This document shows, piece after piece, positions 4,337-39,131 of a stretch of 64,000 bases of DNA. A program made the translations under genes and the position numbers. Position 1 is the stretch's first letter. Each line of letters begins with the position of its first letter. The stretch is from contig OZ017795.1 in assembly GCA_963969395.1 (NCBI GenBank), forward strand, positions 13,640,001 through 13,704,000, given 5' to 3'. The notes under the pieces were generated by a model. That model was not told the origin of the DNA. It saw only the letters and a program-made list of their open reading frames with translations, and made no database searches. This stretch comes from Pseudoscleropodium purum (lineage: Eukaryota > Streptophyta > Bryopsida > Hypnales > Brachytheciaceae).

Positions 4337-4745
4337 GCATTGTGTGTGGATTTCACAAAAAGACATTAGGACTCCAATAATGAAGGTATATCATAATTTT
4401 GTTTAATAATCAATTACATCAGCACATAGGGTGATTGATTTGCAAATTAATCACATTCAATGAAATGAAGTAAAATGAAGTGATTTTTCTAGCTAGTTAC
4501 CAAAAGATTTAAAGATCTCCAAGTTCGTCCAACTAGCTTTTAAAGCCACATGCTTTTGGGTATCACAATGTACTAAAAGAGGTGTACCACCCTGGTTTGC
4601 AATAGTTGCCCCCCCCCTCTCTCAAAAAATTTATAGGCCATTGATTTTTGTAAAAAAAAAGTGCTTACCCTCAAAATTGCCATTGATTTCTCAAAAAATC
4701 TCAAATGGTTGATCTTGTGAGATTTAATTTGAGCTGTCCAAATAT

Positions 4746-5020
4746 AAAATATTGGATATAGATATAATACTGCACATGAATATGTACTAAATACAGAATA
4801 TGGATACGGATACAATATCGCATACAAATATGTACTAAGTATGGAATACTAAATACGGATACGGATACAATATCGCATACAAATATGTACTAAGTATGGA
4901 ATACTAAATACGGATACGGATACAATATCGCATACAAATATGTACTAAGTATGGAATACTAAATACGGATATGGATATAGTATTGCACACTAATATGGAA
5001 TGCAGAATACAAAATATAGA
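4746..5020 (+). repeat. 55-bp minisatellite, about five copies
   Basis: Three nearly identical 55-bp units start at 4802, 4857 and 4912, each opening GGATACGGATACAATATCG. A degenerate unit flanks them on each side (from about 4746 and from 4967). Hexamer-like substructure (GGATAC, GCATAC, GAATAC) suggests growth from a shorter motif. The minus-strand open frames across it are by-products of the repeat. Confidence 0.92.
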
Positions 5021-5185: not shown

Positions 5186-5800
5186 TATACGAGTGGGATA
5201 GAAATATGTAAAACAATGCATGTGAGATATGTAAATTAGGATTAATAAGATCACAACTACTCATAGTTAAGTCAAGAGCAAAAATTGTATTCAATGTCAA
5301 ATTTCAAAACCCATTTAGGCATAGTAGAACAATTTTTTTCAAAATTTTTTGAATTTAACAAAGTTATACAATCAAGCTAGTTTTCATCTCAAAAAATCCA
5401 TTTGAGGTTTACAATCTCCAATAAAAAGTTATGGACAAAATTCAAAGAGGATGTTTGAAAGTGTCAAAAAATACTTCCAAGAATCCAAGAGAAATTTTCT
5501 AGGAAATGAAAACTAGCTTCATTGTCTAACTTTGTTTAGTTCAAAGTTTTTTGAAAAAAATCATTCTACCATGCCTCAATGGAATCTAAAATTCGACTTT
5601 GAACACAATTCATGCATTTGGCAATGAATGATCTATCTTCTAAATATTCCATACCCTTTGAAGATTCACCATGGACAATTGATTTCTTTAAAAAACAACC
5701 TCTCCACTCTTCATTCTCACCAATTGTCAATGAATTAAGTCTACCATAATCCCACTAAAAAAAATTCTTGATGGTAGAACAATTTTCATAGCACCAAAGT
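5186..5800 (+). repeat. Dispersed AT-rich repeat R1, copy 1
   Basis: This segment aligns by eye, in the same orientation and with many substitutions, to 24795-25450. Shared landmarks are GTAAAACAA, a TAAATTAGGATT block, GTTAAGTCAA, a CCATTTGAGGTTT-like block and CCATACCCTTTGA. There is no coding capacity. It is probably part of an old non-autonomous transposon; ends are not defined. Confidence 0.65.
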
Positions 5801-11364: not shown

Positions 11365-11715
11365 TTTCAAGTTGTATAGCTTGCATAATGTGTACTTTGT
11401 TTTCACAAGAATCATTGGTAAGCTCTCTTGACTATCACTAATTTTGGCTTGTAAATTTTGCAATGTTCTACTTTCTAACTTGGGTGTCGGAATGTGTATG
11501 TGTTGCTTTGCACGTTCATGCCCAAACCGCAAATCTATATTTCAAGTTGTACAACTACAAACTTTGTTTTTGCAAAAATCATTGGTAAGCTCTCTTGACT
11601 ATTATTAATTCTAGCTTGTAAATTTTCCACTTTCTAACTTAGGGGTCAGAGTGTATGTGTGTGTGTGTTGTTTTGTAGGTTCATCCCCAAACTGCAAAAA
11701 TATGTTTCTTGTTTT
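11365..11715 (+). repeat. 175-bp tandem duplication
   Basis: Copy 1 (11365-11539) and copy 2 (11540-11715) share TTTCAAGTTGTA, CATTGGTAAGCTCTCTTGAC, a block ending GCTTGTAAATTTT and a GTGTATGTGTG run. A partial third start appears near 11700. Non-coding. Confidence 0.85.
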
Positions 11716-11960
11716 GCACGTCCACCTCTCTGACGACCACAATATTTTTTCAATGTATAGAATTGTAGGTTTTAGATGATTTGTCTTTAGTTGTCATTTG
11801 ATCAAGCATTATACTTGTCTACGTGTGTATTCTTCCATCAAAATACATACATACATATATATTCACTTGCATTTTTACTTGATAGAAAACTCTTGTTGCA
11901 ATGAGGTCAATGGCACTATCTTTTTCTTCAAAGTCATGCCTAATAGTTAATTTTGCAATT

Positions 11961-12150
11961 TCTAGCATTGCCTAAATTACCACCAAATTGCTTGTCTACT
12001 TGCCTAATCAATTGCATTCCAGTTAAGTTAATGCCAACGCTTACACTACCAATTTTCTAGCATTGCCTAAATGAGCCCTGAATTGCTTCCCTACATGCCA
12101 AATGAACTTCATTCCCAAATAAGTTAATGCCAATGTTTACACTACCTCCA
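11961..12150 (+). repeat. 95-bp tandem duplication
   Basis: TCTAGCATTGCCTAAAT begins both units (11961 and 12056), and both end with GTTAATGCCAAYGYTTACAC. The remaining sequence is diverged. Non-coding. Confidence 0.8.
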
Positions 12151-13733: not shown

Positions 13734-13920
13734 AATTTTGGATCAATAATAAGGTACCTACATCCAAAATGAACCTCTCCTCAACATCTACCTATATTTT
13801 TGGAGGGATAAGAAGTAGGGAGGATTCCTAAATCATTCACATGACAAAGACAAATGTTAAATGAATTTTGAGTAGTGTATAATTTTATTAATAGAATTGT
13901 GGAGGTAGAAACTCAACAAC
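13734..13920 (+). repeat. Left 187-bp direct repeat bounding the viral segment
   Basis: By eye this matches 16454-16640 with five substitutions and no gaps, starting AATTTTGGATCAATAAT and ending ACTCAACAAC. Its AT-rich composition is that of the host flank. It could be a long target duplication made at insertion, or two copies of a host repeat between which viral DNA was captured. Immediately inside it, 13921-13935 is an inverted copy of part of the repeat. Confidence 0.9.
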
Positions 13921-14007
13921 TTCCACCTCCACAATCCTTTTTCCACGCTTCTCTAAATTGTTCGATATGTACATTCTAAGCAGCTTTGATGCTGATGAAA
14001 GCGATGA

Positions 14008-14472
14008 CTAGTCATCCTTTACCTTGATGTCTGTTGTATCAATCCCTTGGCTCTTGAGGGAATTCAACAACTTAGTAAAGGAATGAGTAACATCTCTGGG
14101 AGTGTCAAAGGGGTTCAACCTCTCTTGTGGCTTCTTAATGACACGTCCATCAAGAAACTTGTCAAGAGGCTTTATAATAAGAGAGTCAAGGTCAGAGCTG
14201 CTAATGCTGGTGATGCTGTTGTTGATCTGTAATTCCTTAAGAAGGTCTACAACAATAAGCATGTTCCTATTAACAGTCTTAGATACAATATACTTTATCT
14301 TTTCTTTTGACAAACTCTTTTGTGGAATGTATGCGAATACATTAGAGCCTTCCACATCCTCAACTTTTTGCATAGAGTGTTTGTACAAGCTTTGTTGAGG
14401 CGAAGCTTGCACTCGTTTTGGTGATCGAGTGATCATAGGTGTAAGCACCAACGTTCTCTGTTTGGTGTCCAT
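14008..14472 (-). CDS. Uncharacterised NCLDV-associated protein, intact 154-residue ORF
   Basis: An uninterrupted frame of 154 codons starting MDTKQRTLVLTPM. It lies 109 bases downstream of, and on the same strand as, the viral capping-enzyme remnant, inside the repeat-bounded segment. The tight same-strand spacing suits a viral gene pair. It is hydrophilic, with no membrane segment or signal peptide, a charged middle (QKSLSKEKIKYIVSKTVNR) and a C-terminus rich in Lys and Asp. I recognise no domain. Base composition is like the capping gene and unlike the AT-rich flanks. It could be a late viral ORFan or a degraded C-terminal piece. Whether it is expressed in the plant is unknown. Confidence 0.55.
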   Translation of the reverse strand: MDTKQRTLVLTPMITRSPKRVQASPQQSLYKHSMQKVEDVEGSNVFAYIPQKSLSKEKIKYIVSKTVNRNMLIVVDLLKELQINNSITSISSSDLDSLIIKPLDKFLDGRVIKKPQERLNPFDTPRDVTHSFTKLLNSLKSQGIDTTDIKVKDD

Positions 14473-14581
14473 AGCAATAATTAACTGTAGAAATGGTAAA
14501 TCATCTCTTTATAGATGTAACAGAAAATCAGTGGTGCCAGGGGTAAAGAAGCACCTTGTATTGGTCAGTAGCAGGATATGC

Positions 14582-16453
14582 TCAAGACTTCTGCCTTGTC
14601 ATCACTACAAATTCATACATGGACAATAGCAAGTACTTGCTATGTGACATAAACTCATTCCCGTTGAGTCTGTTTCTTGTTTCTAGCTTGAATTCCATAC
14701 TTTCAAACAATGCAATGATATTGTCAACATCAACTAGGTTCTCATTTTGATCAGATACAATAGTGCCAGGAATGTGCACATATACACTACCCTCGTGTTC
14801 AAGTCTGATTGTATATGCTTCACATATGTACTTCCTATTCGCTCTTGTCTCAAGAAAGTCTACTACATATCTTTTTGACATTACTATACATAGGAACACA
14901 CAAGCTTGCTTATTAGAGAACATCCTTTGAGCAATCTTAGCAAACTTAGTAATGTCCATTAATGTTGCACAGAAGAAACAAGAGAGAGTTGTTATAGATC
15001 CGTCAAGTCCTTTTAAGTGCTCTATCTTTGTTTGTATCACTCTCACCTTCCTGTTACCTCTAAGCCTCCTTCTAAGCTCTGTTATATTCGTATGCGATGG
15101 TTCAATGCATGTAACACTTCTGTAATGAGCCCACTTTGCTACATCCCCTCCTGCTCCTGATCCAACATCCAATAAGTGGCCAGTCCCTTTCTTTAGTAGC
15201 TCTCTCTTTATGTCATTGTGGTATGATCTCATGATTGATATGCTTAGTCCTTTGAAGGCTTTTAGAACATCTCTCTCCTCTCTTGCTACCTTTCTTATTC
15301 TTTCTACTACTGTAATAGAGTTCGGGTGCGTCTTGTCTGTTCTCTCTCTGAACAAGCTTACAGTACCATCAAGGTTAACTTTGAATTCAAAGACAGTGTC
15401 TTCCTTTGGCTTCTTACTCTCTTGAGACATTTGAAGCTTCGAATTCACGTTTTTGTCTTTGTTATATGCCATCAGAGCTGTATCCTAGTACAGAAGATCC
15501 ACAATCTTTTGTGGCTTCCATCGCATTACAGGATCAAAGTACAATAGGGAATGAGTGTATATTATACCATCGTGTCTACTATCTTGAATCCTCTCTTCCA
15601 GTAATTGGAAAATGTATAAAAGCTGTTGAACATGAGGTGTCTCTTAGCAACAACTAGCTTCCTTTCAACAGATCTGTTGAGTGCTAGGTAGATCTATGGT
15701 ACTAGCTTTGCTCTCTCTTCAAGAGAGCGATAAGCAACTACTACATTCTCCAGTATGATAACATCAAATGCGTAATACATACTGTCTATTCGCTCGGTGT
15801 CTAGAATGGTTAGTAGAGCATGGTTTTGAATGTCTGATGCAACAATGGTCTCCTGACCTCTTGTTGATATATCGTACACGTTACCTTCATGACAAACTAG
15901 AAAGGATCGTACACCATCGAGCTTTAATGATACAGATCATCCTAACGAATAGTGCTTTGTAAGCTCTCGTATTGTTATATCGATTGGTTTTGGGAATCTG
16001 TAATTGCGAATATCAAGACCAGACACAAGCTTAGTAACTTGTTTACATATCTTTGATACTATTGGAGATTTGATGCTTTCTATTACACGCTCTAGTGACT
16101 CAAACTTACATGTGTTGTGCAATATCTCCAGTTCCATCTCATAGTGAGATTCTCCATTTGAGGTGACCTTAGTAGCATCGATTCTAAAGCCATCACAGTC
16201 CACTGTACTTCTTTCCTTGTACCTCTTAACCTTTAGTGCCATTCCTTCCTCTCTATGATACTTTCGCTCAAGAGACAATACAATTTCAACATCGATTGTA
16301 GTAATCATTGCTGAAGATATTCTCTCCTTGATAAAAAAGTCAGAGCCTATTTCTCTGATCGTGATATCGCTACTACCTTTCATAGAGTATAAGACTTCTT
16401 CTGTGATGACTGTACTACTGATCTTTGGAAGCCTCAGGAAATCCTCCTTTGTT
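14582..16453 (-). pseudogene. Endogenised NCLDV mRNA-capping enzyme (triphosphatase-guanylyltransferase-methyltransferase), truncated and broken
   Basis: Three capping domains lie in viral order. (1) RNA triphosphatase part, 16453-15940, with RIDATKV and YEMELEI, the second acidic strand of metal-dependent tunnel enzymes; the N-terminus is cut by the right-hand repeat. (2) Guanylyltransferase part, about 15939-15490: nucleotidyl-lysine motif KLDG (15913-15924), FDVII, DGIIY (15557-15571) and RWKP (15512-15523); it looks shorter than usual. (3) Cap N7-methyltransferase, 15472-14582, a 296-codon open stretch with SAM motif LDVGSGAGGD (its residues 101-110), IEPS and an FFCAT block. Breaks are a TGA at 15937-15939, a frame change near 15570-15700 and a TAG at 15485-15487. 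In the virus this enzyme would cap transcripts independently of the host nucleus. Here the full product cannot be made, although the methyltransferase part could still be translated alone. The three-domain fusion is typical of nucleocytoplasmic large DNA viruses, not of plants. Confidence 0.9.
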
Positions 16454-16640
16454 AATTTTGGATCAATAATGAGGTACCTACATCCAAAATGAACCTCTCC
16501 TCAACATCTACCTATATTTTTGGAGGGATAAAAAGTAGGGAGGATTCCCAAATCATTCACATGACAAAGAAAAATGTTAAATGAATTTTGAGTAGTGTAT
16601 AATTTTATTAATAGAATTGTGGAGGTGGAAACTCAACAAC
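16454..16640 (+). repeat. Right 187-bp direct repeat bounding the viral segment
   Basis: Second copy of the 13734-13920 repeat, with four transitions and one transversion between them. It abuts the truncated triphosphatase frame directly: coding-type sequence runs to 16453 and the repeat begins at 16454. Beyond 16640 the sequence is AT-rich host DNA that does not match the sequence beyond the left repeat. Confidence 0.9.
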
Positions 16641-16735
16641 TGGTCAATTTTATATTCACTTTGTATTTTTTTAACTTCTCTTTACTATCATTTCTTTGTG
16701 AGCATCAAATTCATTTTGGCATCACCTACATGATA

Positions 16736-19003: not shown

Positions 19004-20495
19004 CTATTCCTCCACTTCCACGTCGTCCAATTCGGCTGGATCGATACGAGGCTTCCCCATACTGAAATTTAGTACTCTGCAATCCAAGTTATATTTCAAC
19101 TCTCCAGCTAGCAGCAGCTTGCGAATGTAGTGTTCTAAGTCAGAACCAATCAACCGCAATGTATACTCGGTCAAATCTGCTCCCTGCGACCATTCACATA
19201 ACTCGGTTAACACCATCATGATATTGCATTCCATGGAGCAACATTTATAAACCTCCATAACAAGAATAAATCTAGGTATCTGCGTCCATCCCTCACACGG
19301 GGCACCACATAATGGAAATCTTCAGAGCATGTCACAGAGGCTCCTAGCAAACCTCATAACCTCAATGTAGCCCATTTTTGTAAAGGTGACAACCGAGCAT
19401 GGGATATGGAGGATATATCCAATAAACTTGTTCTTCTTTGGCGGTATGGTGTCCTTCTCTTTAGAACCTTAATTGAGCATAATTGAACAAATCAACCATT
19501 GAGATTGTCTGGTTAAGGTTATTTACAGCCTGATTATGGACATAAATTCCTTCTCCACTCCTGTGTTTCGGCTTGTTATTTCCAATAACGAGAATATCCT
19601 TTGACTTTACGGCGTCCATTCCAGCGGAGGCAAAGATGCCTTAGGTTAAGAAGATAAAGTGGTCAAATTCTTCGCAACCGAGCAGGTCCCCTTACGAGCT
19701 GACTGATACACAGGGCATGAGAAAGGACATTTAATGCAGAGTGATCCATTGGTCGAGTCCTGTAAGATCCTCAAGAAAGGCCTCTGAATTCCTCGGTAGG
19801 TAAATCGTTCCTAGTTTCTAAACCTCAATTTAGAATCAAATTTGTCCCATTCGGTGGATATTCAGAAGGTGTCCAAGCCGAATTCTACTCACACAAAGAT
19901 AATACGCAAGCACATTCAGTGCGATTCCAAGATCCCTGGAAGTAGAAATTATGAAAGGGACGGACTAAAGGCAATCACAGCGATGTATAATTCGGAATTT
20001 AGAAAGAAGATGAGAATCAAGAAAGCTTACAGCATAAGTATCGACGAGTTCCCTATATTTATCAAAGACTTTCGCCACCATGTCTTCAGGCCACACGAAT
20101 TCATTGTCGGGGTCGAGCATGAGAGTAAGCTTGTCCAGCTGCGATTGGTCCATAACCTTCGTCTCCGGATCAACATACCCTGCATAAATTCGAATGTGGC
20201 GAGTCGTACAGCTGAACCACTGACCTCCGGTCTCCCTGGACAATCCTTTCGCCTGAGTCTTTTCCTTCACCTCCTCCGCTCGCACTCCCACGGGACCTGG
20301 TCCCTTGCGCCATCGTCTTTCCTGCAATTGCGTCTCCAATGCGTGTCCAAAAAAAGAAGCGCTAGTTCTGAAAAACGCGGAGCCTGTAGGACATGAAGAA
20401 GAAGAAGGAGAAGAAGGAGAAGAAGTACTAGCGCCGCTTGCAAACACTGTCGCGTGGACCTTGCAAGCACGGAGGCACAAGGCAGTGGACGCCAT
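19004..20495 (-). CDS. ndhM: Chloroplast NAD(P)H dehydrogenase-like complex subunit M (NdhM), nuclear gene
   Basis: Two exons on the minus strand, 20495-20031 and 19183-19004, joined in phase 0 by GTAAGC...GCAG, give 214 residues, close to known plant NdhM. Residues 1 to about 60 are rich in Ser, Ala and Arg and suit a chloroplast transit peptide. The conserved core follows: [20 protein letters not shown], then [12 protein letters not shown], and in exon 2 [19 protein letters not shown] and [10 protein letters not shown]. NdhM belongs to the stromal subcomplex A of the chloroplast NDH complex, which takes electrons from ferredoxin for cyclic electron flow around photosystem I. The ATG at 20495 begins the transit peptide; the frame stays open a few codons upstream without another ATG. 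Other frames over exon 1 are shadows. Confidence 0.96.
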
Positions 20496-37243: not shown

Positions 37244-39131
37244 ATGGCGTCTCTTACTGCGCTGGCGCCGTTAAGCGTCACTTCAGCGGTTCAGCGGTAC
37301 AATGGACGTGAAAACGCAGGTACAGTGGCCAGGCCTGCGTCGGGATTTTTCGTAGGCGAGTCCAGATTTTTGCATGAGCTCCGGTCGGGTAGCCGGACGG
37401 GTCCAGTTGCCTTGCCTAAGGTTTCGGCGACAACCGCGCCTCTTACTGCCAACCCGCCGTTCTCCAGGAGCGGAGGAGATAATTCGGGTGTTAAGACGGA
37501 GCTTCTTGTAAGTTTTTGCTACGTCCACGTCATTATTTGTTCTGTATTTTGTAGAGATTTATGAAAATGTCAGGAGTCTTGTGAACGTCATGGAGCTTGG
37601 CTGATGATTTGAATTTGTGTTCTTCAAATATAAAACTCTTCAATCCGCTATCAAATACTTCTTTACCTGATTGGAGTCCTATGTGTGTTGGATAATCTTG
37701 AATGAACATACTTCCCCTTTGTTTGTAGATGGCTGCAATTCTTGTGACAAAAGGTGTAGGTTTTTATCCATTGAGTTAAGGTTGGAGAGTAAAGGAGGTC
37801 AAGTGAGTCCAGGACACCGAGAGTTGAATGTTTTTCTTTCGACTTCCACTTTCTGGAGTAGTCCGAGGTGATGTAGTCGGTGTTAGAAGAAGTGAATGAT
37901 ATGTGGAGAGATTGTGGCTATGCAGAGTATTATTGCAGGATTGGACAGGGGCTTGTTGGCAACTGCAAACGATGAAACAGTGACCGACATGGTAGCCCGC
38001 AAATTGGAAGCAGCAGGAAATCCAATTGAGCTACCGCAGGACTTAGACTTGCTACAAGGTCGATGGCGTTTAGTCTTCACCAGCGGGTTTGCTACTGGTA
38101 GCCTTGGAGGGCAAAGACCAGGTCCTCCCTTGGGTCGTCTTCCCTTAACCCTAGGCCAGGTCTGTGCAGCTTCTCCTTTATCGTAAGGCTTCTCTGTGAA
38201 TGTCTGTGCAGCTTCGTATTATAGTCGTAAATCACCTCTCTTGAGTGTGTCCTATGAGGTTTATTTTTTTGTACGCATGTAAACAGAAGCTTTGACGGTT
38301 GTCACCACTTTTAAGCTCTCTTTGTCGTGAAATCAGAGTGGCCAATTTTTTGGAAATCTCAAGGGCCAGAATAGTGCCTCTCTTTAGACCGTGCACAGTG
38401 TTAAGTTAGAGGATACTGTATGCGTCACTGTACCATATGTAAGAGTGTGACTTTTGGGAGATTTATAGAGCTGTCGTGAGATCGGTGGGTACAAAAACCA
38501 ATCTGTTCAGATCAAAGTTTTATCACTGTATAAATTTTTCATGAAATTTTAAATTGGGAGTTTGTAGACCAGTATAAGTGATAGCAGTTCCATTCAAAGA
38601 TTAGTGGCTGTAGACATGTAGTCAAGTCATGCTGCTCAACTTACTAATAAACAAGATAAGTTGATATTGGTAGCTGGGGTCAGTATAGGAGACAGGATTA
38701 GCTCTCTAACGGTAATAGAATGCTCTACCATTTTTCACGTGTTGTTCCAAATTCCAGTTATCTGAATCAGGGATGCGTTGTCACAGGTTTATCAAAGGAT
38801 AGATATTGCAAGCAAAGAGCTGGACAACATTGTAGACTTGCGCATTGGCACTCCTTGGCCTCTTCCTTCCTTGGAAGTAACGGCAACTTTGGCTCACACT
38901 TTCGAGGTGACGAGTAGCAACGGGATCCGTATAGTATTCAAGAAGACAACCGTGAAACCAACTGGAGAACTCTCCCAGCTGCCCTCCTTCGATACACCGC
39001 CACTTCCTGAGTTTTTGAGGCAACCATCAAGTGACCGAGGCGTCGGTAATTTCGACACCACGTACTTGGACGAGGATTTCCGGATCAGCCGAGGGGACCG
39101 TGGGGAGCTCCGAATTTTTGTCAGAGCTTAG
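37244..39131 (+). CDS. FIB6: Plastid-lipid-associated protein, fibrillin 6 type
   Basis: Three exons, 37244-37507, 37926-38159 and 38787-39131, all phase 0, give 280 residues, near the length of Arabidopsis FIB6/PAP6. Residues 1 to about 60 are Ser/Ala/Arg-rich (MASLTALAPLSV) and suit a chloroplast transit peptide. The PAP/fibrillin domain follows: IIAGLDRGLLAT, LQGRWRLVFTSGF, GPPLGRLPLTLGQVYQRIDI (across the exon 2/3 joint), TPWPLPSLEVTATLAHTFEV, KKTTVKPTGELSQLP and the C-terminal TTYLDEDFRISRGDRGELRI. Fibrillins are lipocalin-like proteins of plastoglobules, thylakoids and stroma that bind lipophilic molecules and aid photoprotection. An in-frame ATG at 37184 would add 20 residues, but 37244 gives the better transit peptide. 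The exon 2 acceptor could also be at 37911, adding five residues. Confidence 0.94.

Follow-up and report, generated by a model that had tools for sequence, protein, structure and literature searches.

The viral insert and its chromosomal setting

The window, meaning the whole stretch of DNA analysed here, comprises 64,000 nucleotides of the moss Pseudoscleropodium purum and corresponds to 13.64-13.70 Mb of a 42.9-Mb contig in a genome assembly of 313 Mb and 52 contigs. At 13922..16453 lies a 2532-bp insert that carries, on the minus strand, parts of a viral-type mRNA-capping gene and of a second viral gene. The initial annotation had placed a giant-virus (NCLDV) segment at 13921..16453, which was right almost to the base. 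Homology to viral proteins spans 16449 to 13930, and similarity at the DNA level to a locus on contig C41, the longest of the related loci in this genome, extends from 16452 to 13934; since homology nearly reaches both edges, the insert is almost wholly viral. Over 2529 aligned columns the insert is 91.5% identical to the C41 copy.

The insert is bracketed by a 188-bp direct repeat on the plus strand, with the left copy at 13734..13921 and the right copy at 16454..16641. Both copies abut the insert exactly and 183 of their 188 positions are identical (97.3%); no third copy was found within the 64-kb window. The repeated unit consists of 16 nt of unique host DNA followed by the initial ~172 nt of a host repeat that is dispersed, with at least 39 other genomic matches (40 scored among 164 candidates). 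The dispersed repeat runs on unbroken to the right, where the right copy and its flank are collinear with all six aligned members of the repeat family, while the left copy is interrupted by the insert. Because the right copy continues like the family and the left is truncated by the insert, a single host site appears to have been duplicated upon insertion. This flanking duplication, the second viral gene at 13930-14499, and the loss of ~34 N-terminal codons from the capping gene all go beyond what had been described before.

Genes of the host lie in the flanks. Two exons of NdhM, a gene for a plastid protein, were seen at 19007..20495 (minus strand), with an exon of a PAP/fibrillin gene at 38766..39131 (plus strand; E = 1.1e-21) and an exon of ribosomal protein S3Ae at 52165..52512 (minus strand; E = 2.9e-18). 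Among the 50 matches to NdhM the best has 85% identity; the moss Ceratodon purpureus, the best of the named matches with 58% identity over 70% of the piece and 91% in the second exon, outranks named liverworts, a charophyte, and seed plants, and none of the matches shown is named Physcomitrium patens (P. patens). These matches most likely indicate a moss host different from P. patens. The host genes in the flanks and the duplicated target place the integration in a plant chromosome. Open frames rich in FG at 48619-49851 (plus strand) resemble, by eye, pieces of a nucleoporin gene, and a local cluster of direct repeats with units of 32-80 nt that are 81-88% identical occupies 11394-12146.

The base composition of the insert, which had been called balanced, differs only mildly from that of its surroundings: the GC fraction is 0.387 in the insert and 0.302 and 0.333 in the 2-kb flanks. 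The ratio of observed to expected CpG is 0.41 for the insert, against 0.24 and 0.38 for the flanks and 0.81 and 0.74 for two host genes. The low ratio in the insert is only suggestive of cytosine methylation or silencing; P. patens genes of viral ancestry have been described as enriched for methylation (PMC12344493). Scans of the window for Rfam families and tRNAs gave no matches, ten further window frames had no Pfam match, and the NCBIfam scan returned nothing useful.

The capping gene and the second viral gene

The capping gene begins at about codon 35, with ~34 N-terminal codons missing. Its RNA-triphosphatase part, at 15940..16449 (minus strand), has 170 open codons and matches Pfam mRNA_triPase at E = 8e-4, which is below the curated cut-off; identity is 51% to the P. 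patens protein P0003 and 60% to P0006 and P0008. The guanylyltransferase part with the KLDG motif follows at 15601..15939 (minus strand) and contains two in-frame stops and then a frame break. The end of the guanylyltransferase (DGIIY, RWKP), an OB fold, and the methyltransferase occupy 14588..15607 (minus strand), where one in-frame stop is followed by 299 open codons (15484-14588). This part is 61% identical to P. patens P0001, with Methyltransf_25 matched at E = 1.3e-7 (over the cut-off) and mRNA_cap_C at E = 2.6e-5 (just under the cut-off). The five motifs that had been reported on one strand in viral order are all located on the minus strand: YEMELEI at 16123-16143, KLDG at 15913-15924, DGIIY at 15557-15571, RWKP at 15512-15523, and LDVGSGAGGD at 15143-15172. 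Of the open stretches given earlier as about 170, 80, and 296 codons, the first two hold and the third is 299 codons long.

In total, the capping gene has been damaged by three in-frame stops and one frame break. As the fragment lacks the start of the gene and is interrupted, it is predicted to encode no complete capping enzyme. The second viral gene, at 13930..14499 (minus strand), is 66% identical to P. patens P0010, P0011, and P0013 over 191 amino acids and has no Pfam match; it contains one in-frame stop and is cut off by the end of the insert. Predicted structures of P0006 and of the window piece had mean pLDDT values of 39.6 and 40.6, too poor for a fold search.

Relatives in databases and elsewhere in the genome

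A fused capping architecture of this kind is known from viruses and is not known from plants. A 300-amino acid piece of the insert, searched against a database of 5.8 billion proteins, had a P. patens protein as its best match (E = 3.2e-120), and three of its four matches at E <= 0.001 were from P. patens (1158 candidates, chosen with length limits). A profile was built from P. patens proteins, one further database protein, and the window pieces; its search, which scored only the 7991 candidates sharing most words and was likewise limited by length, found 15 proteins at E <= 0.001, nine from P. patens and six from jgi, ena, or lgn sequence sources. Four of these six are intact at 656-660 amino acids, and some of the intact proteins may derive from moss DNA. 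Known plant or fungal cellular capping proteins were absent from the matches at E <= 0.001 in both searches. The translated search that had been proposed thus bears out the central claim of the initial annotation, as do the host genes in the flanks and the 42.9-Mb contig: the chromosome of a plant contains a fused capping gene of viral type.

The domain content of this lineage is clearest in its long members. In five of them, at E <= 0.1 and mostly with weak scores, Pfam recognized the triphosphatase in four, the guanylyltransferase in four, cap_C in all five, and the G-N7 methyltransferase in three. The long relatives appear to unite all four parts (triphosphatase, guanylyltransferase, OB fold, methyltransferase) in a single polypeptide, as in NCLDV-type fusions, and the window pieces keep the same domain order. 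Single sequences found no match among solved structures, and the profile had a capping enzyme, 1p16, as its best match (E = 0.0099). The P. patens gene models extend from the capping gene into the second gene, so the gene order is common to P. patens and the window. Taken together, the gene order and the sequence similarity show that the insert is related to the viral genes of P. patens. No relative was found in viral_contigs in any of five scans, and hence no free virus was identified.

When the genome was searched with P0006, 15 matches reached E <= 0.001; they correspond to the window and ten further loci (the weakest at E = 4.2e-4) on contigs C1, C40, C41, C44, and C47. The C41 locus, at 15.25 Mb, has a helicase, the capping gene, the second gene, RPB1, and RPB2; to the left of these is a frame with weak similarity to an F-box. 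A near-palindrome of ~640 bp lies inside this viral region (L024 7355-7997) and has a related sequence at L027 8921-9208; it is perhaps a later host mobile element. The C40 locus, at 39.82 Mb (L027), combines RPB2 with the beginning of the capping gene and with a helicase whose best match among solved structures is NTPase-I (E = 5.9e-9). The C40 RPB2 reaches 232 bits against cellular RNA polymerase II and 133 bits against the viral-type entry 6rfl, so that it is no proof alone and its viral origin is inferred from its neighbours. RPB1, RPB2, and the NTPase-I-like helicase at the related loci are candidates for further NCLDV core genes in this genome. A capsid family search of the genome found no match, but all 14 control genomes were equally silent.

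Two loci on C47, at 0.72 and 20.48 Mb (L025 and L026), have ~64% DNA identity and the same gene order up to an RPB1 stretch. The remaining loci are shards of viral DNA. At C47:6.19 Mb (L029, C47:6189000-6198900; positions 4554-4848 and 5496-5622) there are three shards from separate parts of the viral DNA, 96.6-99.2% identical to the C41 copy, of which two are directly abutted and the third lies 0.65 kb further. On C1 (L032, C1:26297000-26306900; positions 4542-4616) a 75-nt shard is identical to the C41 copy at 75 of 75 nt, and was perhaps copied from C41 during repair.

The per-domain trees that had been suggested contain only this capping lineage, and within that scope they set the window copy outside the P. 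patens clade. In the methyltransferase tree, the window and C41 copies are apart from the two C47 loci (each pair at least 100/99), and the P. patens sequences group by themselves (99/96). For the triphosphatase, a single clade (100/100) unites the window, C41, C40, and C44 copies and stands apart from that of P. patens (98/97); in a smaller triphosphatase tree the support for the P. patens clade was only 88/91. The ten further loci appear, by sequence, to derive from at least two virus lineages, with L025 and L026 representing a second, much more diverged one. The P. patens viral DNA has been placed with the Pithoviridae/Pimascovirales in two papers (PMC5294986, PMC12142844).

Age, decay, and route of insertion

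The two flanking copies differ at 5 of 188 positions, a distance of 0.027 (0.009-0.064). At assumed mutation rates of 0.5-1.5e-8, the insertion would be 0.9-2.7 million years old, with an interval of 0.3-6.4 million years; gene conversion between the copies would make it appear younger. The capture had been called relatively recent, and the 97.3% identity of the flanking copies agrees. This identity and the position of the window copy in the trees also exclude an insertion shared with P. patens by descent. The insert as a whole has four in-frame stops and one frame break. The number of stops expected at the repeat-based age is 1.2 (P = 0.034 for the number observed), and at the upper age bound P = 0.33; the four stops would agree better with a decay of 2-3% than of 1.4%. 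In 348 columns shared by four copies of the gene, eight changes (2.3%) are unique to the window, of which six are C>T or G>A. They are spread evenly over the codon positions (3, 2, 3), which looks neutral, although the comparison with C41 plus C44 is not significant at this number (Fisher P = 0.22, n = 8).

The differences between the window and C41 have another pattern. At codon positions 1, 2, and 3, respectively, 53, 33, and 106 of 806 sites differ (p = 2e-10), while in the intergenic part 13 of 103 sites differ. As the differences are mainly at third positions, the two copies would have separated mostly while coding, presumably in viruses, and entered the genome separately.

The junctions carry marks of alternative end joining, with minimal overlap on one side and a templated filler on the other. 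On the left, 8-12 nt within 13922..13933 are neither viral nor left-flank host sequence, and this filler lies inside a 15-nt stretch (13921-13935) that matches the host DNA of 16616-16630 perfectly in inverted orientation. For comparison, inverted matches of at least 12 nt were found for none of 828 30-mers from the insert and for 6 of 6098 other 30-mers from the window, none of them longer than 14 nt. The right junction has an overlap of ~1 nt.

We hold with considerable confidence that the insert is a decayed NCLDV-like fragment of 2.5 kb in a moss chromosome, probably captured when a staggered break was repaired by end joining, no more than a few million years ago. The chromosome would have broken within the dispersed host repeat, with the cuts on the two strands ~188 nt apart. 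A free linear piece of viral DNA may then have been joined in, at one end through the ~1 nt overlap and at the other through a short inverted copy of host sequence, in a manner like alternative end joining by polymerase theta, and fill-in of the staggered ends would have produced the 188-bp duplication. The insert would afterwards have decayed by neutral mutation and encoded no complete enzyme, and the donor would belong to a virus lineage of which several loci in the genome retain pieces. The staggered break, the fill-in, and the polymerase theta-like joining are inferred from the duplication and the junction marks. Long direct repeats flanking the viral matches were not found in the ten other fetched stretches, where short duplications would escape detection; the C41 and C40 inserts extend beyond the ends of their stretches, and a single site underlies the repair model.

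The source of the joined DNA could instead have been another endogenous viral copy, such as the C41 locus, from which the insert was copied during break repair. Near-identical shards are what within-genome copying is expected to leave, and those at C47:6.19 Mb and C1:26.3 Mb are of this kind; the window and C41, however, are more diverged (91.5% identity) than the 2.7% (interval 0.9-6.4%) that separates the flanking copies, and the bias to third codon positions indicates that they separated mostly as working viral genes. An unsampled endogenous donor other than C41 is possible, and overall we regard an endogenous source as unlikely. It is far less probable that the insert is viral DNA carried by a small retrotransposon with the 188-bp copies as its LTRs. 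Near-identical direct repeats do bracket the segment, and their sequence does come from a dispersed family, but the 188 bp include the 16 nt of host DNA outside the left end of the family and the family continues into the right flank, so the borders of the duplicated unit differ from those of the dispersed repeat. In addition, no short target duplication is visible by eye just outside the two copies, and no second copy lies within 1.5 kb of any of the six family members that were fetched. Retrotransposon capture was rejected on these grounds.

Another alternative is that a part of the segment, for example the 299-codon methyltransferase frame, is retained as a working gene of the moss. The frame is open and its SAM-binding motif is in place; it comes, however, after an in-frame stop, and the window-only changes in the four-copy part of the gene do not favour any codon position. 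Since few stops are expected in the time since insertion, the open frame is uninformative: 299 open codons can survive neutral decay of such brief duration, and the earlier suggestion that part of the segment is under constraint is unsupported. A retained working gene is thus very improbable. Hardly any weight can be given to an assembly artefact in which contaminant or viral DNA was misjoined to a plant contig. Relatives of the gene do occur in jgi, ena, or lgn sequence sources, but the insert is decayed, lies inside a 42.9-Mb contig, and is bracketed by an exact host duplication, and its relatives are present at ten further loci on five contigs.

Comparison with known systems

Poxviruses, ASFV, and other NCLDVs carry fused mRNA-capping enzymes with the same domain order and motifs as those found here, but the present lineage is distinct in its length of ~660 amino acids and its weak Pfam scores. 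Alternative end joining by polymerase theta leaves templated insertions, and the inverted, locally templated filler and minimal junction overlap of the window insert are of this type; a foreign insert of 2.5 kb and a duplication of 188 bp set the present case apart. Several insertions of giant-virus DNA in one genome are likewise reported for Amoebidium (PMC11244446) and Acanthamoeba (PMC12210455), whereas the host here is a plant and the pieces at the loci seen are mostly short.

To our knowledge, there is no isolate of a giant virus that infects land plants. Giant-virus MAGs from Sphagnum metagenomes are similar to the present case in their association with moss, but they are free and transcribed, and their authors suggest that some may be living relatives of a lineage long associated with mosses (PMC12142844). 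Among 110 land-plant genomes surveyed in 2017, NCLDV core proteins were found in a single land plant, P. patens (PMC5294986), and a paper from 2020 still gave P. patens as the only plant that shares such traces with fungi (PMC7466625). In the literature searched, which took in few subscription papers, giant-virus DNA was not described from any moss genome apart from that of P. patens.

On balance we lean towards the view that mosses are, or were until very recently, infected by a lineage of giant viruses not yet in culture, that this moss was entered by two or more branches of the lineage and P. patens by a further one, leaving fragments stitched in by repair, and that the 188-bp duplication dates one of these encounters. 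If the capture is indeed recent, giant viruses would have reached moss genomes repeatedly and not only long ago. With a second moss host, lineages outside that of P. patens, several loci, and a dated insertion, what had been an isolated case would become a recurrent process. The finding also points to mosses as a place to seek living giant viruses, and the unusually clear filled site shows how giant-virus DNA can enter a plant chromosome.

The closest known system is that of the endogenous NCLDV regions of P. patens (Maumus et al. 2014; Lang et al. 2018). These regions, which are also described in PMC12344493, PMC12142844, and PMC5294986, share with the window a homologous capping gene (best identities 51-61%), the same second gene following it, and the presence of several gene copies. 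They differ in their host, and in the trees the window copy does not fall within the P. patens clade. That mosses can harbour endogenous giant viruses is already known, and the window insert is a new, dated case; it is small and has a clean 188-bp duplication, so that it can be dated.
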